From positions 310,001-374,000 of the forward strand of contig OZ038458.1 in the NCBI GenBank assembly GCA_964036195.1: a stretch of 64,000 bases of DNA. Reading direction: 5' to 3'. This document shows positions 3,780 through 63,838 of the stretch, one piece after another. The notes under the pieces were generated by a model. That model was not told where the DNA came from and searched no databases. It saw nothing but the letters and a program-made list of their open reading frames with translations. Each line of letters starts with the position of its first letter. Positions within the stretch are counted from its first letter, which is position 1. Source of the stretch: Sphaerolaimus hirsutus (lineage: Eukaryota; Nematoda; Chromadorea; Monhysterida; Sphaerolaimidae). A program made the translations under genes and the position numbers.

Positions 3780-3945
3780 CACTCTTCCAATGTAATTTTT
3801 ACTGCCGTCCTATTGGAGACTGCCGTTCAATTGAAGGGTACCATTCTATCCCTATTGTGAGTGCAAAAACGTGGCAAAACCTGCCGTTCTATTAGAGGTT
3901 CCGCCCTCCTAGTGGAGATATGGCGTTGTATTAGAAGAAATACGG
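3780..3945. repeat. GCCGTTCTATTGGAG repeat (family B variant)
   Basis: Contains repeated GCCGTTCTATT(G/A)GAG units and ends TTAGAAGAAATACGGT, the right terminus also seen at 13.07 and 21.18 kb. This variant has TCTA-type palindromes in place of the C-runs of other family B members. Confidence 0.55.
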
Positions 3946-4878
3946 TGGCCACTTTGCAGGGAGTTTTGCTTGACTTTGGACACTTTCCATGACATATAAC
4001 ACTCGGCACCGGGTCCTGCGAGTCGGGTCGGGTTTGTATTTCGAGTCCTAAACCGCCGCGCGACGGCGGCAGGAGCGTCCCCTCCGAGGCGACGCTGCGT
4101 GTATTACTTGCATTGCCGCGCGTGTGCTCTGTTCCCCTGCCCACTGCTCATGGCTGCCGTGCATGATTCCAGGGGGGGGGGGGGGTATTCAAGGGGGGGG
4201 GGGGCTATTTGCCAACCGGCTTGGATGGTTGGCTGTGCTTTAGAGTGTTTGTTCAAGGTAAATATTTAGGAGTACAATATTTGTTTATGATTTTTGAAGA
4301 CCACCCTTTAGTTATTTTGAGTACCACTCTTTTTTGGCTTTGGGGCGCGAAAATGATTCTTACTTGAATATTTACCGTATATCCTTGATAAGTTTCCGCA
4401 TAAAAATTTTTTCGTCGGAATTTTTATGAGGGGAATTATTCAAGAGTAGGAGTTCTTTTTTTCCTCTCAGGTAGTCGGGGGATGGGGGGGCTATTCGAAA
4501 GGTGGAACCACCCAGGGGATTGAGGATTCACGGTGCTTAACAGCTGAATTGCGGATTTCTGAATGTGTGCATAAATAGCTTTCACTGTGCGGCGAAAATC
4601 AGAAACTGTCAATATTCTCCCGGAAAAATCGCCCAGGAACATACAAGCATCCAAGCCGAAGCCACGACTCAAACATTCCCAAACCCGCCAGCCAAAGGGG
4701 CGTTCAAGGCAGACAGGCACGGAGTTCCTCTGGAGGCTCTATGGCTGGATATATTTATGCGCCCTGGCCCCGAGTGTGCCCACTGCGCACCTATACTGAC
4801 GGCGCTGCCGACTGCCCGGCCGCGCGGCTCGCCTGTGGCGCTCGGGGGCTGTGCGCTAAGTCGTGGCCCTGTCGTGTT

Positions 4879-5525: not shown

Positions 5526-5690
5526 GGCGGACATCTCCCAGACTATGTAAAAAATATCCTGTACAAATGACATATGTCAACTCGTGTAAAATGACAAACG
5601 GAAATTTGTCATTTTCCAGGGGCTTTTGATTGACTTCTGCACTTTGCATGACATTTGACATTTTACAGGGCTCTGAGTGTCAAACTCTAA
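5526..5690. mobile_element. MITE family A, diverged copy
   Basis: Inverted arms are built from TGTAAAATGTCAAA-type words; the right arm reads GACATTTTACAGGGCTCTGAG. This family recurs more than ten times in the window, and its termini resemble splice signals (GTAAAA near the left end, TTTTACAG near the right). Confidence 0.65.
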
Positions 5691-8393: not shown

Positions 8394-8533
8394 TTACTAA
8401 ACTTATAAAGAGCAAGCATTTCGCTGAAATTTTTTTTCAGATAAAAGTTGTGTCACAGTTGACTTACCACCTACAACTTCATTTAACACTTGCCACTTTT
8501 CTTCTCACTCGTTCGGTTGCGTATTTGCCCCCG

Positions 8534-8740
8534 GGCCAGTCCCAGACCCTGTAAAATAAAGTGTCAAATAAATGTACTGTAAAATGTCATGCAAAGTGTC
8601 ATTTGTCATGACAAATGTAATGGAAAGTGTAAATTATCATGCAAAGTTCAGTGATAAACTAATTTCTTTTTTGTTTTGATATACATTTTACATGACATTG
8701 ACACTTTACTTAACACGTTACAGTGTCTGGAAGTGCTCCC
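8534..8740. mobile_element. MITE family A
   Basis: Left end GGCCAGTCCCAGACCCTG then TAAAATAAAGTGTC; right end CACGTTACAGTGTCTGG. Arms of ATGTCATGCAAAGTGTC run in both orientations. A second copy follows after about ten bases. Confidence 0.75.
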
Positions 8741-8748
8741 CGGAGCTT

Positions 8749-8907
8749 TGTGCCACTCACAAACTCTGTAAAATGTCATGCAAATTATCAAACTCATGTA
8801 AAATGTTATTAAAAACTATATAAGAAGTGTGCCAGTTTCTAGAGCATTTTACATGACGTTTGCGTGACATTTTACATTTTACCGGGTTTGGGGTGAGTGG
8901 CACCAGG
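8749..8907. mobile_element. MITE family A, tandem neighbour
   Basis: Well-preserved inverted ends: GTGCCACTCACAAACTCTGT on the left, and the complement of GGTGCCACTCACCCCAAACC on the right. It shows that family A termini begin GGYGCCASTC. Inner words are TAAAATGTCATGCAA and ATTTTACATGACG. Confidence 0.75.
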
Positions 8908-23565: not shown

Positions 23566-23688
23566 GGCTCAGCGGAGTCTGGCGGGGGGCACGGCGGCGG
23601 CGAGGGCCACCTGGACGCGCGCGAGCAGCGGCGCAAGGAGCTCGAGCGCCAGGCGCAGGCGCAACTCGACGCGGCAAAGTACAAGCCG
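23566..23688 (+). CDS. CaV-beta exon: start of SH3 region (split by MITE)
   Basis: Acceptor CCCCCTCAG, phase 0. Encodes GSAESGGGHGGGEG, then the conserved helix HLDAREQRRKELERQ and AQAQLDAAKYKP. Family members continue PVAFAVRTN without a break, but here a family A transposon begins after the Pro codon. Reading on into the element meets an in-frame TGA at 23761. A possible GT donor within the exon is AA|GTACAA at 23679 (phase 2). Confidence 0.88.
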
Positions 23689-23883
23689 GTGGCCAATCTC
23701 GAACCCTGTAAAGTGCCCCCTGTCAAATGTCAAGTGTCACGCAAAGTGTCAAAAGTCACCTGAAATGCCCTGCGAAATGGCAACCGAGTTGCTATTTTGC
23801 AGGGCATTTCGCGTGACTTTTGACACTTTGCGTGACATTTGGCATTTGACAGGGCGTTTCACAGGGTCTGGGACTGCCGCCCG
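23689..23883 (+). mobile_element. Family A MITE inside the SH3-coding exon (candidate introner)
   Basis: 195 bp. Removing it exactly restores AAG CCG GTC GCG TTC (Lys-Pro-Val-Ala-Phe), the family sequence. CCGG occurs at both junctions and may be a target-site duplication. Left arm GGCCAATCTCGAACCCTG then TAAAGTG; right arm TTTCACAGGGTCTGGGACTG; the inner arms are inverted TGTCACGCAAAGTGTCAAAA. It contains a donor-like CCCT|GTAAAG (23708) and acceptor-like TTTCACAG (ends 23864), but joining those two shifts the frame. AA|GTACAA (23679) to the same acceptor keeps frame and would replace TyrLys by ValTrpAspCysArg. Confidence 0.85.
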
Positions 23884-23997
23884 GTCGCGTTCGCCGTCAG
23901 AACGAACATCGGCTACGACGGCACGTTGGACGACGACGCGCCCGTGCCCGGCACCGCCGTGTCCTTTGATATTAAGGACTTTTTGCATATTAAGGAG
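23884..23997 (+). CDS. CaV-beta exon: SH3 core
   Basis: Encodes [18 protein letters not shown], then [20 protein letters not shown], and ends at a GTGGGT donor in phase 0. FAVRTN and FLHIKE are the family's SH3 signatures. The left limit depends on how the transposon is removed. With the acceptor at 23864 the exon would start at 23865 and include residues VWDCR from the element. Confidence 0.9.
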
Positions 23998-24028
23998 GTG
24001 GGTGCGGCGTGGTTGATCAAATGTATTT

Positions 24029-24668
24029 GAGGCGTCCAATTCTAAAAGTCGACAAGTCCAAAATATGAAAATATTTTGAGTTAGGCCCGGAAACGTCATC
24101 TGGGGCTACTTCCGCACATTTTTCATCATTTTCCATAAATTTTTTGACCTCACATGCCCATACGGCATAGTGCCAAATTAGACGTTTTTGGGGAAAAATG
24201 CAAAAATTTGTGCAAGAAGTCGACAAGTCCACTTAGTTTTGGGCTAAAAGTCGACAAGTCCATCCTGCGCATCCTTCTTTTATGGGAAAAAACGCAAGAA
24301 ATGTGATAAGTCCATAATGGGCACCGATTTCTAAAAGTCGACAAGTGCATAAATTTCCCATGAGGCAGGACCAACGCGGGCGGGAACAAAAATGTTCTGA
24401 GTGCAAGAAGTCGACAAGTCCATTTCCCTCCCCAAAACAGTTTTGCTCTGACCGAATGGAATTTTATGGACACCCCATTTTTCACATATAGGTTGAGATT
24501 AGGGGCTGAAAATTTGACACTTTATTGTCAACATATGGAACTTAATGGAAAGCATGAGAGAGCCAAATTGGACACCCACCTAGGGCCTGGAATTGGGTTT
24601 GAAACTTAAAATGCGATTTACTCCAATCGCATTTTGTGGACTTGTCGACTTTTATAATTAGACGCCTC
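24029..24668. mobile_element. Family M element, complete
   Basis: Inverted ends GAGGCGTCCAATTCTAAAAG and complement of GAGGCGTCTAATTATAAAAG, each followed by TCGACAAGTCCA. The word AAGTCGACAAGTCCA recurs at least five times inside, in direct orientation, separated by unrelated 60-90 base spacers. ATTT occurs at both flanks. It starts 32 bases after an exon donor. Confidence 0.78.
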
Positions 24669-24721
24669 ATTTACGTTTGGTCGAAACATAGGTAAATATA
24701 CTCTAGTATAGAGTAAATACA

Positions 24722-25442: not shown

Positions 25443-25627
25443 GCAGTCCCGCACCCTGTAAAGCTTAGATTTTATTAATGAAATTTTGATTAGATTTTAT
25501 TAATGAAATTTTGATTAGATTTTATTAATGAAAATTTGACACTTTGCATGACAATTCGTATAACATTTTACATGACATTTGACAGTTGACTTTATCTACA
25601 CTTTACAGAGCTCGGGACTGGCGCCAG
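25443..25627. mobile_element. MITE family A with internal triplication
   Basis: Left GGCAGTCCCGCACCCTG then TAAAG; right TTTACAGAGCTCGGGACTGG then CGCC. Near the left arm a 25-base block, ATTAATGAAATTTTGATTAG then ATTTT, is repeated three times in tandem. Confidence 0.78.
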
Positions 25628-27507: not shown

Positions 27508-27634
27508 AAAGTCATGTAAAATGGCAAATGACCAGTACAAAATAAAATTGCCTAGCCATCAAGCCAAATTAAGATGATGACATTTGACGCTTTGCATGAC
27601 ATTTGACATTTTACAGGTCCTGTGAATGGCACTA
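27508..27634. mobile_element. MITE family A, partial
   Basis: AGTCATGTAAAATGGCAAAT on the left; GACATTTGACATTTTACAGG then TCCTG on the right. The outermost bases are diverged. Confidence 0.55.
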
Positions 27635-31721: not shown

Positions 31722-31908
31722 ACCGGCAGTCCCGCACTCCGTAGAATGTGAAATCAAATGTAAAATATCATGTAAAATGCCATACAACAATTATAGAATT
31801 TCACGTAAGATCAAATGCTCAGTAATAAAAACTAACTTTTTACTGTAATTGACATTTTACATGACATTTGACACCTTACTTTACATGTTACAGGGTGCGG
31901 GACTGCCT
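31722..31908. mobile_element. MITE family A, well preserved ends
   Basis: GGCAGTCCCGCACTCCGTAG at left; GTTACAGGGTGCGGGACTGC then C at right: 12 of the first 14 terminal bases are paired. Inner arms TAAAATATCATGTAAAATG and TTTTACATGACATTTGACA. Confidence 0.8.
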
Positions 31909-36016: not shown

Positions 36017-36190
36017 GGACAGTCCCACACTTTGTGTGGTGTAAAGTCAAGTGTCAAATGTCATGTAAAATGTCAATCAAAAAATGTTATTACTGAACTT
36101 TTGACAATTTGCATGACATTTGACAAATTTGTATGACATTTTACATGACATTTGACACTTGACATTACAGTTTACAGTGTGCATAACTGG
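36017..36190. mobile_element. MITE family A
   Basis: GGGACAGTCCCACACTTTGT at left; TTACAGTTTACAGTGTGCAT at right. The inner arms include four ATGTCAAA-type words in both orientations. Confidence 0.68.
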
Positions 36191-39376: not shown

Positions 39377-39535
39377 CGCCAGTCCCGCACACTGTAAACT
39401 GTAAAGAAAAGTGTCAACTGTCATGTAAAATGCCATACAAATTTGTCAATTGTCATGCGAAATGTTTAAAGTTAAGTAATAATTTTTTATTGACATTTTG
39501 CATGACATTTGACACTTTACTTTACAGGGTGCTTA
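39377..39535. mobile_element. MITE family A
   Basis: GCCAGTCCCGCACACTGTAA at left; TTTACTTTACAGGGTGC at right, the outer right end eroded. Confidence 0.66.
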
Positions 39536-46318: not shown

Positions 46319-46561
46319 CATACTTCAGTATCTTTACACCTTGCACGCGCAGTTAGAGTTGGAAGCGTGCCAATAATATGTAACGCATGCGATTTTCTTA
46401 ACGAATGAAAAAATCATTGCTGTTATAACGTTATACGTTGTATTCACAACAATAAAAAAATTTATTGAACTGAAATCGCGTGCATTAATTACCATTGGCA
46501 CTTTCCCAACGTGAAACATAAATAACTGCGCATGAAGTGTGTCTTGTCACTGGAGTATACC
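46319..46561. mobile_element. Family C subtype 2 in TRIM9 intron 4
   Basis: Inverted inner words: GAAGCGTGCCAATAATATG and its approximate complement near 46.49 kb. Right end CACTGGAGTATACC. It resembles the copies at 41.9 and 57.5 kb and ends 72 bases before exon 5. Confidence 0.55.
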
Positions 46562-46633
46562 CCAAACACCAATCATTTCCCCAACTCTAGTTTTTTGATA
46601 ACGTCAACATCACAATCCCCCCTCAATTCGCAG

Positions 46634-46836
46634 CCAGTCCAACGTCAACTGCGCCGGCACCTTGTCAACTGTGCGAATCGCCCCTGGAGCCAAACACAGC
46701 CAAATTTCACTGCTTACAATGCGACGTTTACTATTGCGACCAGTGCAGGGAAACGTGCCACCCCAAAAGGGGTCCCCTGGCGCAGCACCAAATGGTGCAG
46801 ATACATGGCCATGGAACTTTGCAGAGGAATGGGGAG
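46634..46836 (+). CDS. TRIM9: TRIM9 exon 5: B-box 1
   Basis: Acceptor TCAATTCGCAG, phase 1. After SPTSTAPAP it encodes CQLCESPLEPNTAKFHCLQC, DVYYCDQCRETCHPKRGPLA, QHQMV, then QIHGHGTLQRNGE. Ligands include Cys213, Cys216, Cys229, Cys232, Cys237, Cys240, His245 and His254. Donor GTAGGT, phase 0. Confidence 0.96.
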
Positions 46837-47238
46837 GTAGGTGCATTTGGGGGGGTTGGTGATGCGATTGTGATAATAGATTGGGAATGATGATTTTTGA
46901 TTAAGTATATTCTCGTGTTTTATAAGTCCTCTGAGGGGGGTGTCATTTCGCGATGTGAAAAACGCCAGTACTTTGGCGCCAAGCGTCATGGCACTTTTAA
47001 ATCACTTATCTCATCGAACAGTGTATGTGTAGTCATCCGAGGGCGCTATCAATTACTTTTAAAAAATTCCACAAGCATTATCTTTGAAAGGGTTTTTTCA
47101 ACATTCTAAATACAAATACCATTGGCTCCACGCCAAATAATGCACTACGCACCAATTGCGCCATAAATACACCTCACCCCTACACCCCCCAAATTGGCAA
47201 CCATCCAACACCCAACCCCCCCCCCCCAACCCCCTCAG

Positions 47239-47394
47239 TCGAGCAGCACCAAGTGCATGGAGCACCCGTCGCAGCCGCTCAGTCTGTTCTGCAGCACGTG
47301 CCAGTACCCAGTGTGCGACTGCTGCCAACAGCCGGGGGCCAGGCACTTTGGACACGACACTACCAGTTTGGAGAAGTTGGGCAAGCAGCAGAAG
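47239..47394 (+). CDS. TRIM9: TRIM9 exon 6: B-box 2
   Basis: C-rich acceptor ending CCCCCTCAG. Encodes SSSTKCMEHPSQPLSLFCST, CQYPVCDCCQQPGARHFGHD, TTSLEKLGKQQK. Ligands Cys276, His279, Cys288, Cys291, Cys296, Cys299, His306, His309. Donor GTGGGG followed by a G-run, phase 0. Confidence 0.96.
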
Positions 47395-50300
47395 GTGGGG
47401 GGGGGGTATTTTTGTTTTAATTTGAGATTTGGGGGGGGGGGGGTTGGCAGTGGTTTGCGAGGTTGTTTTAGGCTGCAGGTACCTAACTATTTATTGCATA
47501 TAATGTGGAAAATGTTAACTCTAGAAATTGGCTCCAGTAATTAAAATTGCACGCTGCTTAATTGAATGTTGTTCCAAAATACAAATCAGCACCGATGAAA
47601 ATCACAACTGAATCGGATTTCTTCAAAATAAATTGTTATTTGTTAAAAATTGTTTTGATCAATTTGCCAATTGCAAGAATTCCCGCGCAACAAAACAAAT
47701 ATACAAAGAATCGGGCAGCCCGATAAAATCGTGTCGGGCAAATTCAATATCACCCCACCAGCTTGTTATTCCCGCTCTGCAGCACCAGCCATGCATGCAG
47801 AAATGGGCTCATCATTCACATCAAAATCATCGCATCACGCAAATTCGCATTTTTTTTTCTTTTTTCAACGCCAACGTGTTTTTTCCGCCCTTTTTTTATC
47901 CCCCCGTGAATGCTAAACATTGCATAAGATCGCGGCTGTGGGAAAATGCGCCGGTGCGGTCGTAAAAAGTTATTAGCGGAACTAACGATGGAAAGCGCGG
48001 TTCCATGAAATTACGTTTCGAAAATGTTCGGACAGTTAGATTTAGGTGAGCTACAAAGGCATGTGAATCTTTTGTAGGAAAAGTAAATGTTTTTGTATAG
48101 TTGCATACCAAACATGTATTGTATTGTATACCAAACACTTTGCATGGAAATCTACCATAACCCATTTGAATAATGAACCGAAAATAAAATATTTTTTCAC
48201 CATAAAACATTGGATTCACCATCTGATAATTTGGAACAAAATTTTCTTCTAACTTTATTAATCAAGTTATGGTAACATTCATTGTATTCTGTGTGCTGGA
48301 TACTTACCCACAAGATTGATAAAAACTCTCACGACTGTTTCAAGAAAGATTTATATGTCACCCCGAAGTTTTTTCTAACTAGATGTGTCCATTTTCCAAT
48401 CTGTGGTGTTTGAGGGGGGTGGCGTATTTTACCTGAACTATTTTTTTCGATTTTGCTGCCTGGGCCATGCCAGTGATGCAATGACGCCATTTTTCTGACG
48501 TTTTTTCATTTAACAAAAAAACAAAAACAGGAGAAAATGTTACCACCGTTTGAACAGTAGAATTGGTAATAGGTAAATACAGGCGAAAGTCAAATACAGA
48601 GTACAGTACGGAAATCCCCATTTTCACGACATATCCATTTGATATAAATTTGTAAGCAGGAAATTTGAGACATGCATTTTGCCCGATGCAAAATAAATAC
48701 CCCTACAATTTTGGTCCACACTGTACATGCCTAACGAATGCTTTTCTACCACAGTGAGCTAGCTGTATATATCCGCGCGGCACTTATGTACCTTTGAGCG
48801 AATGAAATGTATCCCTTATCCTGGGCAAATGCTCTAGCCCACTGCGCATGGATATTTTATATTTTCTACATGCATTTCGAGGGAGCATAGCCTTTACTTT
48901 CTTGAGTTTGGGTTTTAATGGCCCCAGTGCTCATGAAAAATTTACTTCAATTTGAAGGTTGAAACTGAAAGCTGGCGCTCAACTTCCACTAATGGAAAAA
49001 ATCAGTATTTTTTCTGTACACTGCGACCACTTTTCAACTGTCAATAATTTGGGAACACAAACATGAATGTGTACCAAACTTTGCATTCTGTATCAAAATG
49101 ACTGAACAAACAAGTTATTATTGTTATGTAAATAAATAAATAGATACAGAGAGATACTAGTCAGTTCAAACATTGGCACTTGCACAGGTACATAAACAGA
49201 TTACAGTTAGACGCAGTCAGCAGGTCTATCAATTTGCAACCACAGATGGGCATGTTCATTTCTCAAGCCCATGATTTGCAAGCCATGCAATTATTGGCAT
49301 TGTTCACACTATCTGGCTAGCTGTTAGGTGTTGGGTTGAGTATTCAGATTAATGAAAAATTTTGTTGCAATCTAGGTTAGGCAGTTAGTAAGCAGATAGT
49401 AAGTACATTTTAAGAAAGAACATTTTCAACTAGTGCAAACATTTTGAACAAGAGCAAGTGAAAACATTTTCAGTATAGTCTGCCCAAAGTTTCATTTTTT
49501 TTTGTAGTGCCTAAATTTCAATGATGTAATGTTTATTCAGTAAAGTCTGCTGACTGCACACTTGAAATTCACCATATTCCATTGGCACATTGAATGCACC
49601 GACAATCAAAACATTTTTCACCATTTCCCCAAAACATTTTTTCACCACCATTTTAGGTTAGATTTGTTTTAATTTTATCAACATTGGTTTGATCGGGGGA
49701 AAATTGAGCGCTCAGTTTTACACATAAATCAATCTATGAATTTATGCAAGCAAGTGATGCAGTCTGCAAAATATGCACTGAACTTGTAGATCACTCAGCT
49801 TGGAAAATATACACTGTGGCAGTGGGTGAGCCTCTGTCTATGTATTTATGAGTATATAAAATGAATGTATGAATAATGCGCGTTCACACTTTTGACCTCG
49901 CTAAATGAAGGTCATTTGTATACCGGCCCACCATTTGTGGTACATACACATGTAAAGTGGTGTTACCTTGACATTGGGATGTTTCACACTAAAATAATAC
50001 CAGTTAAGGATGACATGTGGATCTATTTCAAATGGGGGTCAAATGGGGGACCTATTTTTATGTTTCGTGTATTTTTGTGAATGCGAATGTTTCTGTGGGA
50101 TTTAAGGCACTTATTTTTTATTTCAACTTTAAATACCGACCTAGTTAACAATAAAAATTATTTTGTACATTTAATTTCTCGTCAGGCAAATTTTGCCGAT
50201 GATGTTCAATGAGTAATTAAATATTTGCTGCCCGATTAAATGTGCTCTTTGTACTACCTATTTAAGTCACCATTTTCATCTTTTCAACACAGTTTCAGAT

Positions 50301-50822
50301 GAACCGACCCCGGTCATTTGATTTGATTAATCAAAATTGTATTATGTAATTCCGATCAATCTAAACGTTCTACACGTCACTTTTTCGATTTGCATCGATG
50401 CTGTCAGCACAAACGCAACCGCCATATTTCAAATCTTGTGTCATAAAATATTTTGTGTAATTTACAATGCCATAAAAATTGTCTTGGACATTCGAAATCA
50501 ATGACCACCGCACTTTACGAAGTCAAAAGTGGACACTACCACATTCTGCTTGACATTTGATCACTGGAAATTGCCACACAAACAATATTTTGATTAATTT
50601 GTACATGCACAGCATGCAAACTGGAGTAATAGGTATAATATAGGTACATATCCATGTATATAGATGAATGTATACCAACATTGTGACTTAATTAAAGACC
50701 ACACTCCGTACCCAAGGCTTAGTTTACGTTTACTGAGCTCTTTGGTGGAGAATTGTCTTGAATTCAACACACAAACATTTTTGAACATTTTTGAAATTCA
50801 TACAAAAATGTCACTCATATGA

Positions 50823-51050
50823 CCATCCTGGACTATGTAAAATACCCTGCAAAATGTAAAATGTAATGCAAAGTGTAAAAAATCATGAAAAATACCTGGG
50901 AAATGCATTTACCAAGTAAGTTTGCCACTTTCAGGGCATGTTGCATGACTTAGACACTCTGCATGGCATTTTACATGACTGTTGGAACTTTGCATGACAT
51001 TTCACATATACCAGTGCGTTTTGCATGACATTTTACAGGGTCTAGGAATC
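50823..51050. mobile_element. MITE family A
   Basis: ACCATCCTGGACTATGTAAA then ATACCCTGC at left; GCATGACATTTTACAGGGTC at right. The inner words TGCATGACATTT and AAATGTAATGCAAAG are inverted. Longer than other copies because of extra TGCATGAC units. Confidence 0.7.
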
Positions 51051-52078
51051 TACTTCAATCCATAAGATTTTCCGCCGACGAAAACGGACGCTACTATAGT
51101 ATAGTATTTTACTCTGGAGACATGTAACTACCCAGTATTATGTTCATTAAATGCCGGTCATGTAAGCTATGTGTACATGTGATAGATCAAATGTTACATT
51201 GGCTTGTTTATTACGGATTTCCTGGGCTAATATTTTGCATCGGAGAAATGTTGGATACACATTTCGAGGGGACTAATTTTTGATTTAGGCAGATTACTTT
51301 TTGGAATCCATTGAAATTGAAGTAAAGAGTTGTTTCTGATAACTAAAACTAAATAAAATATAAGAAAATACTGAAAATATTTAGCTTAAATATTGATTTA
51401 GATATTTATCTTTCATTTCTCCTGTTTTTTAATCCTGATATTTAATATATTTTGATGAGAAAAATGTAAATACGATAAATATATCCATGTTTCCTCAAAG
51501 AGATTCAATCAAATTACATTTTTGAGAGATTTTCTGAAATTATATTTATTTATATTTTCTAAAAAACCTTGTTTTTGAAACGCTAATTTTGCGTTATTAG
51601 ATCGTAAAAATGATTTATAAGAATCACGGAAACCAGCCCGTCTAGTTACTTTATCCATCATTTGTTTACAACAGGCCACAAGAATAAACCAAAAAGAAAC
51701 ATAGTTCACATTCAGCGTTCATATGAATACGCTTTCTGTCCAATTTGTAACTAAATATGTCTTTTTGGCAACTTCGAATGATTTATAGTGAACAGAAAAA
51801 TGAGACATTCTAAATCTAACATATGTGTTACTTGTAACATGTTTTTGTTCACAGGAATATGTACAGGAAACATGTGTTGCGTTCACGGGGCGAGTTTTTT
51901 TTCAATGTAAACACGTGTAGGTTGTGGTTTATTTTTTAGGGGGAAAATGTTGAATAGGAATGATGTAGTTTTCTTATTTGCAAAAAAAAGTTTCGGAAAA
52001 ATGGCAATTTTTTATGCGTGAAAAATACAAGAGATCGATTTTTATACCTAACGGCTAGCTGGAGTTTTGACAGTATTT

Positions 52079-52175
52079 CCCCGGCCATCCCGAATCTGAA
52101 TAATTACCGGGATTTTTCGGTACTCCGATCCCGAAACCCGCAATCACGATCCCGATCCCGAAAAGTCGATCACAT
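52079..52175. repeat. Degenerate CCCGAT/CCCGAA repeat
   Basis: CCGATCCCGAAACCCGCAAT and CACGATCCCGATCCCG. The same type of hexamer array as at the end of CaV-beta, here in intron DNA. Confidence 0.45.
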
Positions 52176-52286
52176 TTAAACCTAATAGTCACACCCCAAA
52201 TATTGTTGCCGACTGAATTTACTAATGGCTTCTTCTGAACGAAAAAACAACAACAACAAGCAAACAAGTGTAGATAAAAATTTGAG

Positions 52287-52372
52287 CTGCGCCAAAAAAA
52301 TGGCGTCAAGCGCCAAACAAATTATGTATCACGCATTAAAATGGCGCCAGGATCAAGGGCGCCAAGCGCAAT
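52287..52372. repeat. Family L GCGCCAA cluster
   Basis: AATGGCGTCAAGCGCCAAAC and AATGGCGCCAGGATCAAGGG then CGCCAAGCGC. Outer ends not identified. Confidence 0.45.
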
Positions 52373-52819
52373 TCAACACTAATTGCCAGTGTGTATTCCA
52401 ATCAATTTCAACAGTGCGCATTTCCATTTTCCATCTGCCGTCGCACACCGCCCTGTAATTTTCCACTTGAATTTGGCTTGTAGAAATCGGATGTTTCCCG
52501 TTTTTCATGAAACCCCACATTATGCACCTTGTATGGAATAAACAATTCCGGACATTATAATTAATTATAAAATTAATCAATTGTGTATTTTCATTGGATT
52601 TTTCTGTGTTGGGGCTACTGAAAAATTGATTTGGGGGGGGGTATTTTTTAACGCCGCAATCTTTAACGAAGCATAAAGCATCAAAAAGGATACAATGAGT
52701 TCTCTCCCAGTGATCACAGAGGGGGTTATTCGAGGGGTGTATTTTTTCCTCACTCGGTCTCAGATAACATGGAGAGATATTCGAAGGGTGAACTTATTCG
52801 AGAATTTACGGTATCTATG

Positions 52820-53283
52820 TACCGTATTTCCTCGAAATACCCCCCCCCCCTTGAAATACCCCCCCCTCGTTTGACCCCCCCCCCCCTCTCGAGACCACTA
52901 TGAAACAATCACCCCCCCCCCCCCTCGAAATACCCCCCCCCCCAAATTGAGTGTAAAGGGAACGTACATGACAATAACGGTAGTTTGTGTTCTGTGTACT
53001 GCAGAACACACGTGAAAACAATGTCGGTGTCACGTTAGAACAGTGTACATACCATCTACATACTAATATTTGTCTACAGAACCTTATAAATGGCGGTTTT
53101 TGTTGCATTTTTCGACGTCTGCGTACGTTTCAGATGACAATTTCGTACTTGGTTTTCAAAAATTTTCTTGTGAAACAATAACCCCCCCCCCCTCGAAATA
53201 CCCCCCCCCTCGTTTAACCCCCCCCCTCTCGGGACCACTATGAAACAATCACCCCCCGGGGGGTATTTCGAGGAAATACGGTA
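52820..53283. mobile_element. MITE family B, young-looking copy
   Basis: Ends TACCGTATTTCCTCGAAATA and TATTTCGAGGAAATACGGTA. The interior is almost the same as 61534-61987, including TCTACAGAACCTTATAAATG and GACGTCTGCGTACGTTTCAG, so the two copies are likely recent. Confidence 0.87.
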
Positions 53284-53805
53284 TGTAGAGTAGATTGATT
53301 CATTGTTCACACAACAAAAGTAAACAGAGCAATAAAATCCTGGATGAGTCAATTTAATAACTCTTCGTGCAGATGTAAATACAAACCAATTTTGTAAATG
53401 ATTCATGAGCTGAAATTTTTTCTGGATATTGTTCGTTCCTGACAGCGGGGGTCTGTAATTTGGTTAGACGTTTAAATTTTTATCTTCCCAGAAACTCCCG
53501 AAATGATCCGACAAAATTAAACAATCTTGACTTCAAATAGACAAATGGAACCAAATGGACACAGGGAAAAAACATTTTGCCCCAACCAGTTCATGCCTAA
53601 TATTTTGGAAACTGAAATACATTTGAGTAGACCACAATGGATCGTTTTTGATCTCTGTAAACAATAGTTTGTGTACTCCTCGTTCCGGTTAACTCATGCA
53701 TACAGAGTGGACTTTTACTTCACTTTTGGAAATTTCAGCTGTAAACTAGTGTGTGGGGCCAAATATTTCTTGTGGCTAATATAGGAACGGCCAGGGCTTT
53801 TTTCC

Positions 53806-53896
53806 AAAGGTTTTCAACCAATTTTTTAACGAAAAAAAAACGGTTTCTTTAATAAAACAAGTTCGTTGAAAAAAAACGTTTTTCTCCATCCCTAGG
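53806..53896. repeat. Family J terminal fragment
   Basis: AACGAAAAAAAAACGGTTTC, then AAAAAAACGTTTTTC and CCATCCCTA: one A/T-run hairpin end of the hAT-like family without the unique middle. Confidence 0.5.
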
Positions 53897-54379
53897 CTAA
53901 TATCCAACTAACGAGATATTGACTTGCAATGATGTCAGGAATAATTCTCGTTTTTTATGGAAAATCATATTTAAGCCATACTGAATTGCCCATGGCAACA
54001 CGAAATATAAACGTTTTGTCAATTGCTCTGTCCATTCTCTTTCATATTTAAATACTCAAAATTGCTAAAAAAATGTATGGACAAATTGATAAACACTTTC
54101 ATAACATTGAAACGTAAATGCCACCATTACACAATTTCTGTTACATGACGCCATCAATCAATGCTCTAAATGCATTTCACGAGAATAATTACGGCCCATT
54201 AGTGCCATTTCACTTAAAGTGTCACATTTCAACTTGAATGACATCATCAATTGTCATCACTTAAGTGCAGTGTCATAATGCATGCCGATCTTATTCGCAC
54301 GGAATATTTACAGTAAAATTGCGCCGTTTAGGTATAGAATGGGGAATGAGAAAAATTCCAAGTCAAATAGCTTTTCTAT

Positions 54380-54790
54380 TACCGCATTTCCTCGAAATAC
54401 CCCCCGGGGGGTGATTGTTTCATAGTGGGGGGGTATAACGAGGGGGGGGGGGGTATTTCGAGGGGGGGTTATAATTTCACAAGAAAATTTTTTAAATCCC
54501 AGTACGAAATTGTCGTCTGAAACGTACGCAGACGTCGAAAAATACAACAAAAACCGCCATTTATAAGGTTATGTAGACTAATATTAGTATGTAGACGGTA
54601 TAAACACTGTTCTAACGTGACACCAACATTGTTTTACATTACACAGAACACAAACTACAGTTATTGTCATGTACGTTCCCTTTACACTCAATTTGGGGGG
54701 GGGTATTTCGAGGGGGGGGTGTTGTTTCATAGTGGTCCCGAAAGGGGGGGGTAGAACGAGGGGGGGGGCGTATTTCGAGGAAATACAGTA
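54380..54790. mobile_element. MITE family B, inverted relative to neighbours
   Basis: Ends TACCGCATTTCCTCGAAATA and TATTTCGAGGAAATACAGTA. The interior is the reverse complement of the 52.8 and 61.5 kb copies (ACGCAGACGTCGAAAAATAC, CCGCCATTTATAAGGTTATG). Confidence 0.85.
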
Positions 54791-54989
54791 TGTCGAAATA
54801 GGTATGTAGCTTTAAAAAGGTCAAATAAATACTATTTTTTATCTATATTTCCTTGAATATATCCCCATACAACCTATTTTACTGAAATTAGGGTAAAGTG
54901 GCTTTACCATAAATTTTATGTGGTCTTAGAATTAAGCCCCTGGGGCCGGGGCAGCCACGAATGTCTTACGGTAATTCACACGTTATGGG

Positions 54990-56880
54990 TCGCGTTTTTT
55001 CTTCAAAACAAATCCTTCAATTATCGCAATTTTCTGTCCAATAAAGGTTGCGTGTTTTATGTGCATTAACACCATCGAAACAACGCAAAAAGATTAGTTT
55101 ATGAACCCTTTCACGTTCAAATCCCACGCCATGTCAAGTAGCAAATTTCAGATGGTTTCAAGCGCTCAAAGTTACACGCATCAAATGTCAGTGAAAATTT
55201 GTAAAATTTTAAATATAATACTACTAGGATGGAACTGAACTTAACTGGCATTTTACACCTTTTTGGCACTTGACAAATCTTTTTAACATAAATGTGTATA
55301 TGTTTTACACAAATATTTTTGTATTTTTAATTTTGACAAAAGTTTACGACTTGACATGGTTTGGGATTACACGCTGGATCACGAATGACTCATGCTTAAG
55401 AATGATGTCAGCACGCTCGAGTTATATATATTTAACTTAGGTCATTTATCATGTATTAACTTGGGCTCTAGTGAAAGTCAGTGGAGATTTATGACCCATT
55501 TCATTTGACTCTGACTGATTTTATTCACGTAGTAGGGGGGGGGGGATTTGAAAATTTCCAAAAGTCTTCGTGCCAGTTTTCATGTTTTGGCGCTAATGGC
55601 TCCATTTGTTGCGAGGCGTAAATACTATATTTAACACAAGATACTGTAGAGCTATGGATGGAAGATGTTTTACGACCCTTTTTAAATAAACCGGTTTTTA
55701 AAGCTCCAAGTGTGGTAATGAGTTGTTTTTTCTTCTAAAAACAGCTAAAAACCGTCGAACATCCAACGTAGAAGCAAAATACCGTTATTATTTCAATTTC
55801 CCCGCGTCAAAATTTCAAATGCCGCAAATTGTCAAATCTGGTGGAGAAGATGCATCTGGCAGCAGTCCAAATGCATTCGAAATGTCGTTCTCTCGAATTA
55901 ATTGCATTGCATGGATGTGCCAAAATTCCATTTAGCCCATTTCCACTATCAAAGACGGATGGCATGCGCTAATACAATGGGCGGGCGACATTACATGTTC
56001 CCATGTATAGGGTGTGTCGAAATACATGCGACAGTACAATGTGCACGTGTAAGACATTGGTTGCAGATAAATGGACAAGCACTATAGTTTTACTATATTA
56101 TGCAGAACGTGATTGATTGTTTTGCAGGGGTTCGGTGCTGTTCGCAATTTAAGCGGCGCCACTTGAATTGACGCTGGCACATTTCGCTGGAATCGGTGTT
56201 TGAAATGTTGTGGAATGGGGGTATAAATCACTACATGAACAATGTATTTTATATGAAATTGTGATTCAAAATCAGGATTCATTCAAAATGCTTGTCAAGT
56301 ATTTACCTCCGTTTGTCGCCTAGTATACAAAGAATTTTCTTCACAGTATACCACCTCCACTCAATGTTCATACTCAAATAATTTTATTAATTGGACTTCT
56401 CGATGGGTTGGAAATGAAACGAAAATAAATCTCATTTATAATGTTCTGCTATAGATAAATAGTCAAAGGCTGCACACATTTCAGTCCGAATTCCATGCAT
56501 AAGCTTATTTCAACTAGAGTAGGTAATCAATCTTTAGTCATGCTATTTACGTTCCAACATTTACCTACACTATTTTAATAGTGGAACATTTATCGGTATG
56601 CCTAGCATTTTATGGCTGAAGTGATAAAAAATTTATGTAAAGGGATGGTTTTTTGTGTAGTCTTTATATGTATTTACGTATGTAATTACATTGCCAAGAG
56701 AAAATGGCAATAAATTGGCAAAGAAATGGGGGAAAATGTTCTGTTGTCTTCCACGCTTGAAGCAGCTGGGAATGGAATGTACATTTTACATGGACCATAA
56801 CAAAATACAAATAAACAACAAATCAAATAAATACATGAGTATGCACAAGAAAAATGTATCAAATTAATTTTGGTGAAAAA
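54990..56880. other. TRIM9 intron 6, no feature seen
   Basis: AT-rich DNA without exon candidates or recognisable element ends. A 9-base G-run occurs near 55.54 kb. Confidence 0.4.
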
Positions 56881-56937
56881 CATGATCACTGGAAGCCAAA
56901 ACGCTATAGAATTAACAACCTCGCAAACTGTCATTCG

Positions 56938-57164
56938 TAGTCATATGAAAAGCGCCAGAACTTCGGCGCCAAGAAACAACAGCGCCATGGCGCTTTTCCA
57001 ACTCCCAGCGCCAAGCGCCAATGGCGCCAGAAGCACCATGGCGCTTTTTGCTGCGCCAGGCATTTTGTTCCTGGAGCCAGTAAAAAATAGCGCCAAGCGC
57101 CAAAAGCGCTACAGCAAAATAGCGCCAAGCGCTTAAAGCCCCATATGGCGCTTTTACATCACTA
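56938..57164. mobile_element. Family L element, complete
   Basis: Left TAGTCATATGAAAAGCGCCA, right TGGCGCTTTTACATCACTA: matched inverted ends. The interior has about a dozen GCGCCA/TGGCGC words in both orientations. Ends beginning TAGTGATG suggest a hAT-like origin, but no 8 bp duplication is evident. Confidence 0.7.
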
Positions 57165-57351
57165 GTCAAACGACAAGAAAAACTAAAAGTGATAAGTAGA
57201 CTTGTATTTACAGCAGATAAACAGAAAAGGGAAACCAATTTTCTTCACACTTTACTTAAAATCACTTAAAATTAGCTCACACCTTTCCGACAATTTGAAC
57301 ACATAAATATAAAAGTGTCTGTCCTCCAATTTTTGCGCATTTTCCCCACAG

Positions 57352-57447
57352 GCAGAGTTGTCGGGGACGTTGTCAGTGCTGAGCGAGAAAGCGCGCAGCG
57401 CAACAGAAAACATCTCCAGGACAAAGGCGGTCGTCGACGCGATGCCA
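57352..57447 (+). CDS. TRIM9: TRIM9 exon 7: coiled coil
   Basis: Acceptor CATTTTCCCCACAG. Encodes AELSGTLSVLSEKARSATEN then ISRTKAVVDAMP, gap-free against the SDRAKEAKEFLVQLRNMVQ region of vertebrate TRIM9. It follows a 10 kb intron. Consensus GTGAGT donor, phase 0. Confidence 0.9.
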
Positions 57448-57474
57448 GTGAGTTACCACCCCCCCCCCCTTCAC

Positions 57475-57640
57475 ATATACTCGACGGACTTGATACTTTG
57501 CACTCGCGGTTATTTATGTCTATTGTTGGAAGCGTGCCAATGACAATAAAAGCGTGTTGATTTTGTAAAAAACTTGAAAAATTCATTATTGTGAATATGT
57601 TAACGTATAATGTTCTAACAGCAATGACGATTTCAAGTTT
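57475..57640. mobile_element. Family C subtype 2, partial, next to exon 7
   Basis: CATATACTCGACGGACTTGA then TACTTTGCACTCGCGG; inner GGAAGCGTGCCAATGACAAT. Starts under 30 bases from the exon 7 donor. The right end is lost. Confidence 0.6.
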
Positions 57641-57756
57641 TCGAAATTCGAAACCTCATTTGGGGAAAACACTTAAAACTTTAAACACTTTTCTTGGCGA
57701 GTTTGCCATCGTTAGTAGTGGCTCTTCATAGCCAAGCGTCAAAAAACCCGTGGCAC

Positions 57757-57962
57757 TTTTATGTATTGTAAATCCTCGAATAAGTTTATGGTTATTTTAC
57801 TTAGAAAAATTTATTCTAATTTATAAAATATAGTTTTCAAACACCACACCCACATGGTGAGTTATTCAGGGGGTAGTTATTGTTCCTCACTCGGAGAAAA
57901 GGGGGCTTTATTCAGGGGAGGAGTTATTCAAGGGAGGGTACTCATTCAAGGATTTTACGGTA
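57757..57962. repeat. Family B, diverged copy
   Basis: TAAATCCTCGAATAAG at left; ATTCAAGGATTTTACGGTA at right; GAGTTATTCAAGGGAGGG units between. Confidence 0.55.
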
Positions 57963-58107
57963 ACCAGTCTGAGTTTTTATCACCCCATTGTGTGGGATGG
58001 AATAAAATCTCAAAAACGTGAAGATGGGTAATATTTGAAAACTAGACTATGATCACTCTTTGATACTGAGCTTTTTGTTTAAAAAAACAAGGCCGTAATT
58101 TGCATGT

Positions 58108-59113
58108 CCAGGGGCCAGTTCCGCAAGTAGACAAGTTAAGAGTTAAAAGTTAAGAGTTGAGTTAAAGGTTAAAAGTTGAGTCAAAAGTTGAGTTAAAAGT
58201 TAAGAGTTGAGTTAAAGGTTAAAAGTTGAGTCAAAAGTTGAGTTAAAAGTTAAGAGTTGAGTTAAAGGTTAAAAGTTGAGTCAAAAGTTGAGTTAAATGT
58301 TAAGAGTTGAGTTAAAGGTTAAAAGTTGAGTCAAAAGTTGAGTTAAAAGTTAAAGGTTAAAAGTTGAGTCAAAAGTTGAGTTAAAAGTTAAGAGTTGAGT
58401 TAAAGGTTAAAAGTTGAGTCAAAAGTTGAGTTAAAAGTTAAGAGTTGAGTTAAAGGTTAAAAGTTGAGTCAAAAGTTGAGTTAAATGTTAAGAGTTGAGT
58501 TAAAGGTTAAAAGTTGAGTCAAAAGTTGAGTTAAATGTTAAGAGTTGAGTTAAAGGTTAAAAGATGAGTTAAAAGTTGATTTAAAAGACAAATGGGTCAT
58601 TTGTTGCAGAAGCGCGATACGCTGATCTTCAATCATATTTTGTCCCCTCACAGCCATTTCGAAACAACGTTCGGCGATTTTTTTGTTTTTTAGCGATAAT
58701 TTTTTTGGATACGTTATTTTCAAATGACGTGCATACAACATTGGCACCATGCCAGCGAACAGCCGTATCGATACCAATTTCATATTTTTATTTTTTTATA
58801 TTTTTTTACCATCATTTTCCACTTGTCTCTTAACTCTCAACTCTTAACTCAACTCTTAACTCAACTCTTAACTCAACTTTTAACTCTTAACTCAACTTTT
58901 AACCTTTAACTCAACTCTTAACCTTTAACTCAACCTTTAACTCCACTCTTAACATTTAACTCAACTTTTAAGTTTTCTCTTAAACTTTAACTTTTCTCTT
59001 AAACTTTAACTTTTCTCTTAAACTTTAACTTTACTCTTAACTCGTCATTTGTCTTTTTACTCAACTCTTAACTTTTAACTCTTAACTTGTCCACTTGCGG
59101 AACCGGCACCAGG
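58108..59113. mobile_element. Foldback element I with minisatellite arms
   Basis: Ends CCAGGGGCCAGTTCCGCAAG then TAGACAAG, and complement of CCTGGTGCCGGTTCCGCAAG then TGGACAAG. The left arm is a 50-base minisatellite. The right arm (about 58825-59095) is made of complementary TTAACTCAACTCTTAAC words with different spacing. The middle (58600-58820) is unique and carries a - strand open frame (MKLVSIRLFAGMVPMLYARH, then LKITYPKKLSLKNKKIAERC). That frame may be a remnant of element coding sequence, but I do not recognise it. Confidence 0.75.
58136..58590 (+). repeat. 50 bp minisatellite, about 9 units
   Basis: Unit starts TAAGAGTTGAGTTAAAGGTT, then AAAAGTTGAGTCAAAAGTTG and AGTTAAAAGT. Unit starts fall at 58151, 58201, 58251, 58301, 58389, 58439, 58489 and 58539. 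The 88-base step shows one 38-base unit with a 12-base deletion. A few units share the variant AAATGT for AAAAGT. Confidence 0.9.
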
Positions 59114-59773
59114 ATAAATTGATGTTTGATTCGGTGGTGCGAGTGCTGCAAAAAAATTTCATCGGAAAAAGCACCATAATTTTCTAAATGACCGCATTGA
59201 AATAATATGTCATTATTCACACATCTGTTCCCATTTTTTAAAGCAATGTGGCGTTGGGAACGATATTTTTCCGCCAAAATTGTGTCGATTTTCCATTTTA
59301 GTTTACCAATTATTTCCTTTTAGATATATTGTATGGCGTTGCACAAACAAATTTATCAGATCAAATCAAATTTTCGTCAAATTAAAGCACACCTTCATTT
59401 TCAAGACAAACTAGGCGAAAAATCCCGTTTTCAAAAATGAAACACACCTCAAAATTCCATGCGCGCAGCAGGTGTCCATAAAATCACTCTGAAAATGTGG
59501 AATTTCTTCATTAAAATTTTTGCACGATTACGAAGGCCATCTTTGCGCCACCTGTTGACAATATATTTGATTTGATTTCTAAAAAAAATGAAAATCGAAT
59601 TTGAAACAAAGGGAGCGACGTTTCATTCTTAAAATCTGGATACGTATTGTATCGATGTTTGCAGATATTAATTCGCAAGACAATAATATTTATATTCAAA
59701 ATAAAATCCTTGCCATTGGTTCTGGTATTCAAATGGTACATCTGGAAATTGTCTCTGAAACATTCTAGTAAAG

Positions 59774-60212
59774 TACCGTATTACCTCGAAATACCCCCAT
59801 GGGGGTTTATTATTTCGCCAGCAAAATTTGAGGGGGGGTTAATTCGAGGGGGGGGTTTATTCGAGGGGGGGTCTTATTATTTCGTCAGAAATTTTCGTAA
59901 GGATCGTAGTAAATAGTAGGCATTTGCATGCCCAAAACAGGTAATAAATGTGTCCAAACAGGATATATTTGGACATAAAAACGTAGATTAGCTACACAAA
60001 CATGTCCATGTGTAGCTGGAATACAGATAAACAGTAATATACATCATGTACATTGCATACATGACGTATTTATTATGTACATGACGTACATCATTCCGAA
60101 GGGGGGGGTATTTCGAGGGGGGGGTTTATTATTTCCCCAGCCGATTTTGAGGGGGGGTTAATTCGAGGGGGGGGTTAATTCAAGGGGGGGGATAATTCGA
60201 GGTAATACGGTA
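59774..60212. mobile_element. MITE family B
   Basis: Ends TACCGTATTACCTCGAAATA and AATTCGAGGTAATACGGTA. The interior lacks the TTATAAATGGCGG block of its neighbours and instead has TGTACATGACGTACATCAT palindromes, so it belongs to a separate subfamily. Confidence 0.8.
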
Positions 60213-60235
60213 ATTCGTATTACTTAAACCTGGGC

Positions 60236-60412
60236 GGGCCCCTTTCAAACCAAGTAAAATGCCCTGGAAAATGTCAAAAGTCATTCAAAGTGTCAATAGT
60301 AATGTAAAATAACCTGAAAAGTGGCAAATCTCTGGTAAAAATAAAATTTGACATTTGATATCAATTTTGACAATTTTACATGACATTTTATCGGGTCTTT
60401 GAGTGACACCAA
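60236..60412. mobile_element. MITE family A
   Basis: GGGCCCCTTTCAAACCAAGT then AAAATGCCC at left; TACATGACATTTTATCGGGT then CTTTGAGTGACACC at right. The acceptor-like TTTTACAG of the family has become TTTTATCG here. Confidence 0.66.
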
Positions 60413-60454
60413 TAATCAAATAGCGTTGACCAATCAGCATGCAGAAAAGAGTAA

Positions 60455-60870
60455 GACCCCGTTTACACGGATTTTTTGTGACGACTCGACAAAAATAAAA
60501 CGTTTAATAAGTTGAGTAAAGATGTTCCATATTTATGAGAAAAAGTGGTCAATTATACATATTACCTAGGCGAATATGCATGTCAAATTGCACAATCGTG
60601 CTTGTAGCTCATGAGTTAAAGGCGTTTGAAAACTTTTGCAGTTGTCGGACAGTTGTCGGACTGTCTCCGACAGCCAGCGACAATAGCTAACTTTTTTCAA
60701 ACGTTATAAATCTTGAGCTGCAAGCACAAGTCTGCAATTTGGCCTGCATATTCGCTTAGGTAGAAGGTATACTTCATCACTTTTTCTAATGAATATGGAA
60801 CCTTTTTACTCAACTTATTGAACGTTCTATTGTTGTCGAGTCGTCACAAAAAAACCGTGTAAACGGGGTC
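60455..60870. mobile_element. Harbinger-like MITE with TAA duplication
   Basis: Ends GACCCCGTTTACACGG and complement, flanked by TAA on both sides. The two halves (about 190 bp each) are imperfect reverse complements throughout (CGACTCGACAA..., GCGAATATGCA(T/G)G, GCTTGTAGCTCA). The centre is a short GTTGTCGGACAGTTGTCGG motif. TAA duplication fits PIF/Harbinger. It lies between TRIM9 exons 7 and 8. Confidence 0.85.
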
Positions 60871-61177
60871 TAACCCTTGTTTTTGATTGAACGCGGGAAT
60901 TTCCAGATTTCCATTGGCACGTGCAAATCGATTTGCACACCAGCTTGCGGAGTCGCTAAGTACACAGAGGTTGTGCCGTTATTTTTTTACAAAAATTGAT
61001 GAAAAAAGCATGCAAATTGAAATGAGGAATGGGCGTGTGCATTAGGTAAACATCTACCTATATAAATACACTGCGATATCTAAAGACCTTGGTACTTACA
61101 TTCACCTAAAGGAACTAAATATCCACACAACAAAAAAAAACAACATAATTTACACGCAAAATTTACAAAATTTACAG

Positions 61178-61294
61178 GCGGCATGCAGCGATTTCGAACA
61201 GCAAATCGAGTCACAAATCGACGGTCTCATAACGGCGCTGCACGATAGAAAAGAAGTCTTGTTGCAGTTTGCTAGGGAAGAGAGAGACAGGAAG
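61178..61294 (+). CDS. TRIM9: TRIM9 exon 8: coiled coil
   Basis: Acceptor AAATTTACAG. Encodes AACSDFEQQIESQIDGLITA then LHDRKEVLLQFAREERDRK; vertebrates have CDALIDALNRRKAQLLARV here. Donor GTGGGT, phase 0. Confidence 0.95.
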
Positions 61295-61317
61295 GTGGGT
61301 CAATGTTTTTCGTAATT

Positions 61318-62097
61318 AGCATTGAAAAAATCGTCAATTTTTAGAAAATATAATAAAATATAATCTCAGAAAATCTCCCACGAAAAAGATAATTAAATCT
61401 CTCTCAAAAAACCCTGGAAAAATACCAGAATAAAAAAAATGAATGGTATATAAATAAATATTAATATCAGAATTTGAGAGATTTTCTGATATTTTTAAAA
61501 ATCTCAGAAAATCTCACAAAAAGAAAATATAATTACCGTATTTCCTCGAAATACCCCCCCCCTCGAAATACCCCCCCCCCTCGTTTGACCCCCCCTCTCG
61601 GGACCACTATGAAACAATCACCCCCCCCCCCCTCGAAATACCCCCCCCCCAAATTGAGTGTAAAGGGAACGTACATGACAAATACTGCAGTTTGTGTTCT
61701 GTGTACTGCAGAACACACGTTAAAACAATGTCGGTGTCACGTTAGAACAGTGTACATACCATCTACATACTAATATTAGTCTACAGAACCTTATAAATGG
61801 CGGTTTTTGTTGCATTTTTCGACGTCTGCGTACGTTTCAGACGACTATTTCGTACTTGGTTTTCAAAAATTTTCTTGTGAAATAATAACCCCCCCCTCGA
61901 AATACCCCCCCCCTCGTTTAACCCCCCCCCTCTCGGGACCACTATGAAACAATCACCCCCCGGGGGGTATTTCGAGGAAATACGGTAAATATCTCTAGAA
62001 AATCGTGAAAAATATAAATATCAGAAAATCTTATATTTTCTGAGATTTTCGGAGATTTTTTTAATATAAATCTCCCATAGATTTTTTCAATGCTATT
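61318..62097. mobile_element. Family P element with 7 bp duplication and nested MITE
   Basis: Left AGCATTGAAAAAATC and right GATTTTTTCAATGCTATT are inverted. CGTAATT stands on both sides (61311-61317 and 62098-62104). The arms hold repeated AAATATAATNTCAGAAAATC words. A family B element (61534-61987) has inserted in the middle. The left edge is only 23 bases beyond the exon 8 donor. Confidence 0.78.
61534..61987. mobile_element. MITE family B, nested
   Basis: Nearly perfect 20-base inverted ends and an interior almost identical to 52820-53283, including GAACACACGT(T/G)AAAACAATG. It is younger than the family P element it interrupts. Confidence 0.88.
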
Positions 62098-62356
62098 CGT
62101 AATTTCAAGGCAGATCATCAAATTGTCTTTATTTATTGATAGACATTTTCTGACCTTGTGCTAATTCCGCAAGTTATTTACTTTTTGTAAATATAAGTTT
62201 TCATTTTTCACTTCCGGAAAAACGGCAGTTATTTGAAAAAAATAAACATAAAAAGGATATTTACAGACAAAAATTGGCAGCGTTTGTCAAGCAATCTATC
62301 TAAGGGTAATTTTTTCATAAAAACCCAAATTTCAAAGCGCGAACTCACCCTCACAG

Positions 62357-63796: not shown

Positions 63797-63838
63797 GTTT
63801 GTTAGGTGGAGGATGTGCTTGTTGTGTGAGTGTTATGT

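Follow-up and report, generated by a model that had tools for sequence, protein, structure and literature searches.

How might a conserved exon be read when a DNA transposon lies within its codons, and when exact removal of the insert would leave intron ends other than GT-AG? The question is raised by a 64,000-nucleotide stretch of DNA of the nematode Sphaerolaimus hirsutus, hereafter the window (C14:310001-374000 in an assembly of 348 Mb and 762 contigs), where a CaV-beta exon with ordinary outer borders is split by such an insert (Table 1). Taking out 195 nucleotides restores the frame, joining AAKYKP to VAFAVRTN as the original prediction had it, with AAGCCG/GTCGCG as the predicted join, and the CCGG that it noted at both junctions is indeed there. 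Besides the TGA at 23761 there are two more in-frame stops, so that the insert is, as was claimed, untranslatable in frame. The joined protein aligns gaplessly over 62 residues with CaV-beta2a (1t0h_A; E 6e-22 in a PDB search), and 21 other PDB CaV-beta sequences match it as well. The insert pairs with itself almost end to end, its fold reaching -149.7 kcal/mol against a mean of -65.1 (sd 5.0) for shuffled versions, a z of -17 that 0 of 200 shuffles equalled. The next CaV-beta intron (24028-24669) holds a second foldback-like element, starting with TGAGGCGT..., ending with ...ACGCCTCA and containing several AAAGTCGACAAGTCC-like internal repeats. Further along the window, a short ORF with EIPPPSFNPPPLGTTMKQSPPG-like text recurs near 32550, 52855, 53174, 61533 and 61881 and probably belongs to another repeat family, and the exons at 46526-63837 are presumably, by the look of their ORFs, those of a TRIM9-type gene.

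Table 1. Features of the split CaV-beta exon and partial matches to the element family (positions in the window)
Feature	Position	Strand	Basis
CaV-beta exon, left part, ending ...AAKYKP	23566..23688	+	preceded by CCCTCAG; joined translation vs CaV-beta2a 1t0h_A; Pfam PF12052 match adjoins junction
Left CNG target-site copy (CCG), final codon of left exon	23686..23688	+	CNG at both family ends
Putative MITE-derived introner; predicted intron GTGGCC...CGCCCG (GT-CG), 195 nt	23689..23883	+	sister copies, consensus, fold z -17
5' terminal inverted repeat with predicted 5' splice site GT; repeat end approximate	23689..23710	+	conserved among copies
In-frame TGA when element is kept	23761..23763	+	frame reading
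3' terminal inverted repeat CAGGGTCTGGGACTGCCGC	23862..23880	+	family copies
Right CNG target-site copy (CCG), predicted non-AG 3' splice site	23881..23883	+	junction letters, family ends
CaV-beta exon, right part (VAFAVRTN...HIKE), then GTGGGT	23884..23997	+	sequence; alignment to 1t0h_A
Partial MITE-consensus matches	3942-3995, 5585-5671, 8533-8886, 25535-25585, 27577-27617		sequence match
Partial MITE-consensus matches, continued	31849-31907, 36046-36177, 39393-39520, 50835-51007, 60251-60398		sequence match

Judged by its sequence, the CaV-beta insert belongs to a high-copy family of non-autonomous foldback MITEs, with a 189-bp consensus, terminal inverted repeats and no long coding sequence. 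A first look with the window copy as query scored 40 of 3,156 candidates. Genome-wide, a 33-nt end pattern (GGTGCCARTCYCRGACCCTGTRAAATGCCCTGT, at most 3 mismatches) gave 3,685 forward and 3,667 reverse matches, 7,352 together in 348 Mb, a figure that may exceed the number of elements because their ends are inverted repeats and one element may match twice; the reversed control pattern, at the same tolerance, gave 0 and 0. Loci came from the first look (8), the end pattern (30), a further set (60) and a strict CTG..CTG sample (30); paired ends were absent in 13 of the first 98, which were dropped, and with locus repeats removed 115 distinct copies were read. The family announced in the original prediction is thus real, but its 'over ten copies here' holds for the genome, where the full sister copies lie, while the other matches in the window are partial.

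The common layout is CNG/GTGCCARTCCC...GGGACTGCCCC/CNG, slashes marking the element ends. With ends allowed to shift by at most 2 nt toward a match, the trinucleotides flanking 91 oriented copies were CAG/CAG in 41, CTG/CTG in 20, CTG/CAG in 12, CTG/CCG in 4 and others in 14; in 65 of the 91 the same trinucleotide stands at both ends, a 3-bp CNG target-site duplication. Because this duplication supplies the 3' end, the odd GT...CG boundary left by exact excision at CaV-beta, rightly pointed out at the start, is a family-wide feature and no accident of one copy. The GT at the 5' end of the element is there largely by construction, because most copies were fetched with patterns containing GTGCC; the invariant GT and final G of 38 sense-coding copies were set aside as evidence, as the fetching patterns contain both. 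A sister subfamily B, starting with GTGCC.. and continuing with CCCAAGCC, accounts for 6 of the 30 loci in the strict CTG..CTG sample (L100, L115, L116, L118, L122 and L125), all CTG/CTG, with mostly AT-rich flanks. Some genes hold two elements within about 1.3 kb (BCKDHA at L024, a FAT4-like cadherin at L021, a TRP-channel-like gene at L054, an IFT70-like gene at L065), which indicates a dense invasion. The locus names DCAF13, IFT70, RIMBP and TRPC go beyond the database labels and are our presumption. Locus L099 (G000:C762) is COX1 of the mitochondrion; its frame contains 14 TGA, and AGA stands at positions best read as Ser, in keeping with the invertebrate code. This reading of AGA speaks against a tunicate, and COX1, like the Srx/Srv receptor matches, looks nematode-like.

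Many of the sampled copies look exonic. Among 82 subfamily-A copies of the 5' end pattern sample (L009-L098), the flanks have a mean GC of 0.56 and 0.55, and both exceed 0.5 in 45 copies, whereas the 2-kb bins of the window range from 0.325 to 0.483. Strand and phase were called with an annotation-free codon model. Its training set, 1,259 codons from 19 loci, came from proteins that had been chosen by eye as confirmed or recognisable, and it was rerun leave-one-out so that the scored locus was excluded from training (an earlier version, which started from four loci and went on to train itself, was rejected as it drifted onto the wrong strand). A call required a posterior above 0.9 over 90 nt on each side. 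Of 108 subfamily-A copies scored, 54 had both flanks called; the strand agreed in 43 and disagreed in 11. Once the element and one CNG are removed, the phase agrees in 38 of the 43 same-strand copies, where chance would give one third (p = 1e-13), and in 35 of these 38 the gene runs in the direction of the element (p = 7e-8). The 5 same-strand copies out of phase and the 11 strand conflicts count against reading the family as introners.

That the gene runs from the GT end of the element is not a matter of construction. AG-ending copies are in phase in 20 of 23 cases, all sense; non-AG copies, taken in element orientation, in 18 of 20 (p = 2e-7), of which 15 are sense and 3 are antisense (p = 0.0075). 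The 5'-end sample, which was not selected for CTG, is in phase in 27 of 31 copies as a whole, 26 of them sense (19 AG, 7 TG or CG); within it the orientation test on non-AG copies, 7 sense against 1 antisense, is weak alone (p = 0.07). Leaving out the training loci entirely gives 24 of 29 in phase, with 22 sense and 2 antisense. The antisense trio consists of L008, the second copy in L023 and L124. L008, which has a kelch domain match across the joined site, and the second L023 copy both show GT at the 5' end of the gene, at an element end that is usually GG. In gene sense the L023 copy reads GT..AG, L008 GT..CG and L124 GG..AG, so that L008 is the only non-AG member of the trio; the antisense call for L124 may be wrong, as its forward ORF also looks coding-like by eye. 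Another possible antisense coding copy, at L038 (near 1350-1525), would read GG...AG on the gene strand. As with known introners, similar copies thus lie inside coding exons of many unrelated genes, and the element ends coincide with the predicted intron ends, with the frame kept in the 38 copies.

Protein homology brings this down to single genes. Across the junction, the joined proteins of CNOT9 (C1:10595875, E 1e-31), EFTUD2 (C1:20014882, E 1.5e-26) and BCKDHA (C1:8335220, E 7e-12) align gaplessly with PDB sequences, and these copies, like that of CaV-beta, are all non-AG. OSCP1 is another gene with a copy (C1:3591983). Searches of Pfam or PDB with 26 distinct non-AG copies gave a junction-spanning match for 14 (L001, L002, L007, L008, L023, L024, L029, L065, which is weak, L102, L113, L114, L120, L121 and L128/L129); at L073 an SH3 match begins just past the junction, and the remaining 11 have no accepted spanning match in Pfam or PDB. 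At L031, one of these, Pfam reports RIFIN, which we discount as a membrane helix matching by chance. Pfam recognised nothing in ten short joined ORFs drawn from seven non-AG loci, a result that is neutral as to coding. Eleven AG copies were submitted too, and in 7 the match crosses the junction, weakly so in two; these lie in urocanase, a second copy in BCKDHA, TRP_2, kinase, carboxypeptidase, PH and zinc-finger domains. Srx/Srv receptor matches also figure among the Pfam results, and extra, separate copies of the left and right EFTUD2 exon halves lie at G000:C13:19279049-19279103 and G000:C1:20026721-20026774.

Could ordinary GT-AG sites nearby do the same work? For 15 non-AG copies we scanned from -30 to +60 around the left end for every GT, and from -70 to +30 around the right end for every AG, that would leave an in-frame, stop-free join. 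BCKDHA (L024) and the RIMBP-like gene (L073) have no such option in this range. The cheapest one changes 7 residues in EFTUD2 and 5 in CNOT9, where VKTDE, identical there to the PDB sequence, would be lost. L007 could lose two residues or have one replaced, and L029 could gain three or have one replaced by two; because these options are cheap, exact removal is not forced at either locus. The window copy, ending in CG, lacks the 3' AG of a canonical intron. Its cheapest option is the one foreseen in the original prediction, AA/GTACAA...CACAG/GG, in frame and stop-free, encoding VWDCR in place of YK beside the conserved site. Splicing there in the window copy strikes us as quite improbable: the protein would be altered where exact removal aligns gaplessly, L007, the other CCG copy, also regains its reading frame by exact removal (albeit with a cheap option of its own), and several other non-AG copies have nothing comparable. 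The internal pair built into the inverted repeats, GTAAAA...TTTTACAG, would shift the frame and leave 18 + 19 = 37 nt. It is, however, better-looking than GTGCCA, a weak 5' splice site, and this too counts against the introner reading.

The 3' base carries further information. A strict pattern, fixed at 14 + 14 positions that lie 145-175 apart, takes in subfamily B and copies outside coding sequence as well; it finds 403 CAG..CAG, 277 CTG..CTG, 137 CTG..CAG and 44 CAG..CTG matches genome-wide. Even decay of the two target copies would make the mixed classes equal, from which 137 against 44 departs (p = 3e-12), in favour of AG at the 3' end. The simplest reading is that an intron born at CTG works, yet gains from a change of T to A at position -2; the skew may also have a mutational cause. 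Introns of the CCG type were considered as a common class and rejected, since a strict CCG..CCG pattern, to which the window copy does not conform, gives 4 matches genome-wide; among the non-AG types it is CTG that is common. Copies ending in CAG and CTG have the same median divergence from the consensus, about 8%. At CaV-beta the copy is 13% off the consensus, which makes the recent gain proposed for it doubtful.

What has to be explained, therefore, is a family with a three-base target duplication, lying in coding sequence, in phase, in the sense orientation and skewed toward AG at the 3' end. The transposon-born intron, originally put forward for one exon, is well supported genome-wide as a candidate class by this in-frame, sense-oriented and exact placement. 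We consider it quite probable that the family is introner-like, the element bringing GT and the target the 3' end, with a tolerant U2-type spliceosome as the likeliest machinery. The element would insert at CNG, duplicating three bases, and its 5' end would provide GT(GCC); since its right end lacks AG, the duplicated CNG would become the last three bases of the intron. RNA cut exactly at both target copies would recover the original codons, with a CAG target yielding GT-AG, CTG yielding GT-TG and CCG, as in CaV-beta, GT-CG. The spliceosome would accept NG at the 3' end, and so would have to tolerate T or C at -2, perhaps helped by a hairpin setting both intron ends side by side. From the letters of the genome we infer RNA splicing as the agent, at these boundaries and with an efficiency sufficient for gene function. 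A genome search with U2AF2 found one strong locus, at C6:10838482-10841607, whose best pieces score 94 and 84 bits, against at most 43.3 bits elsewhere, and so gave no sign of a duplication like that of Fritillaria (below).

The hairpin might do more than help. In one variant, which we keep as a minor possibility, it is the hairpin and not AG that would set the 3' cut: the paired terminal repeats would hold the two target copies next to each other, so that any NG works, either because the spliceosome reads the stem or because SOS splicing acts as constitutive, genome-wide intron removal. In SOS-type excision proper, the terminal inverted repeats would base-pair within the mRNA, the hairpin so formed would be cut out by an endonuclease, and RTCB would seal the ends; as no spliceosome takes part, non-AG ends would be tolerated. 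The extreme fold of the CaV-beta copy (z -17) agrees with this, paired inverted repeats flank the exonic insert as they would in a substrate, and CAAP1, one factor of the SOS-splicing pathway, is present in the genome. Symmetric excision of a hairpin should nevertheless be indifferent to orientation and to terminal dinucleotides, at odds with 35 sense against 3 antisense copies and with 137:44 toward 3' AG; moreover, two of the three antisense copies show GT at the 5' end of the gene where the element usually has GG. We consider SOS-type excision, as described in the available part of a review (PMC13247085), unlikely to account for the family: the preference for the sense orientation and the skew to AG together favour the spliceosome over removal blind to orientation.

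Two further explanations do without any removal from RNA. An assembly is a single picture of one or few animals, and the non-AG copies could be unspliced, segregating insertions damaging the genes of the animal sequenced. That is very improbable. Their divergence is no lower than that of AG copies, and two pairs of paralogues have the same GT..TG insertion in common: in L107/L108 the elements are identical at 156 of 168 positions with 28 gap columns (flanks 149/150 and 146/150), in L128/L129 at 181 of 192, and the partners of each pair encode the same joined protein over some 30 or more residues on either side while the element has diverged. When 33 joined sites, 18 non-AG ones among them, were searched against the genome, no stretch exceeded 64 of 100 nt, so that neither an empty site nor a spliced retrocopy came up; two AG sites also match additional contigs (L082 on C353, L074 on C423), which have an element-sized gap there too. 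With the sense bias, these shared copies also speak against the disruptive segregating insertion that had been the second option at CaV-beta. Precise somatic excision of DNA, in the manner of the internal eliminated sequences of ciliates, would explain exactness at the target duplication but predicts neither the orientation bias nor the AG skew. We know of no animal where gene function is reached by this route, and we find it barely conceivable here.

Returning to introners with a 3' end supplied by the target, there appear to be, in one animal genome, hundreds of closely similar introns differing mainly at the -2 base of the 3' end, as set by the target. If this is true, nature has run a parallel assay of the AG rule, to be read out through divergence (age) and conserved exons (gene function). 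Intron gain on a mass scale in an animal is indicated, and with it a route where a new intron is born non-canonical and later drawn toward AG. There is a consequence for annotation: predictors restricted to GT-AG would break CNOT9, EFTUD2, BCKDHA and CaV-beta in this genome.

How does this compare with known systems, as far as the available portions of the papers cited below go? Introners are non-autonomous elements that reach high copy number and occur as introns in many genes; many of them have terminal inverted repeats and target-site duplications (Gozashti et al., 2022; PMC9860276). Some families, as in Chrysochromulina, bring the 5' site with them and take the 3' site from the DNA into which they insert, with a 4-bp target duplication and no inverted repeat (PMC9860276, legend of Fig. 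2C). Terminal repeats, target duplications and a co-opted 3' site are therefore already known. The same paper, in the text available, has introners in only two animal groups, and the word 'nematode' is absent from its main text. Searches of the literature on nematode introners, SOS splicing, GT-TG sites and introners generally, with subscription journals thinly covered, returned no report of the present family. Within that literature, we have not found described a single animal family in which the target base chooses GT-AG, GT-TG or GT-CG in many copies. The likeness to the introners of PMC9860276 lies in copy number, repeats, duplications and the co-opted 3' site; here, however, the co-opted site is variable (CAG, CTG, CCG), and for that reason one family would yield all three intron types.

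Terminal dinucleotides of this kind have precedents. The introners IE-B and IE-D of Micromonas, with 25 and 6 members, are GT-TG (Verhelst et al., 2013; PMC3879977), as would be the CTG copies here, which number 277 strict CTG..CTG matches in coding and non-coding DNA and whose end is set by the target base. In human genes, TG is used as a 3' splice site by U2-dependent introns, with 36 genes having it as an alternative site (Szafranski et al., 2007; PMC2374985), but not as a transposon-borne class. Amoebophrya introners form hairpins, with direct repeats of 3-5 nt at their boundaries and non-canonical ends (Farhat et al., 2021; PMC7789003), all with a counterpart here, although boundaries are highly diverse in Amoebophrya and predicted as GT...NG in the nematode. 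Finally, another animal, Fritillaria borealis, has introns with AG/AC and AG/AT ends, YAY..YAY triplets and a duplicated U2AF to deal with its non-AG ends (Soo et al., 2026; PMC13326754). A similar triplet before the intron and at its end is common to the two animals, YAY..YAY there and CNG..CNG here, but the nematode elements have a GT end, in a genome where the search found one strong U2AF2 locus.
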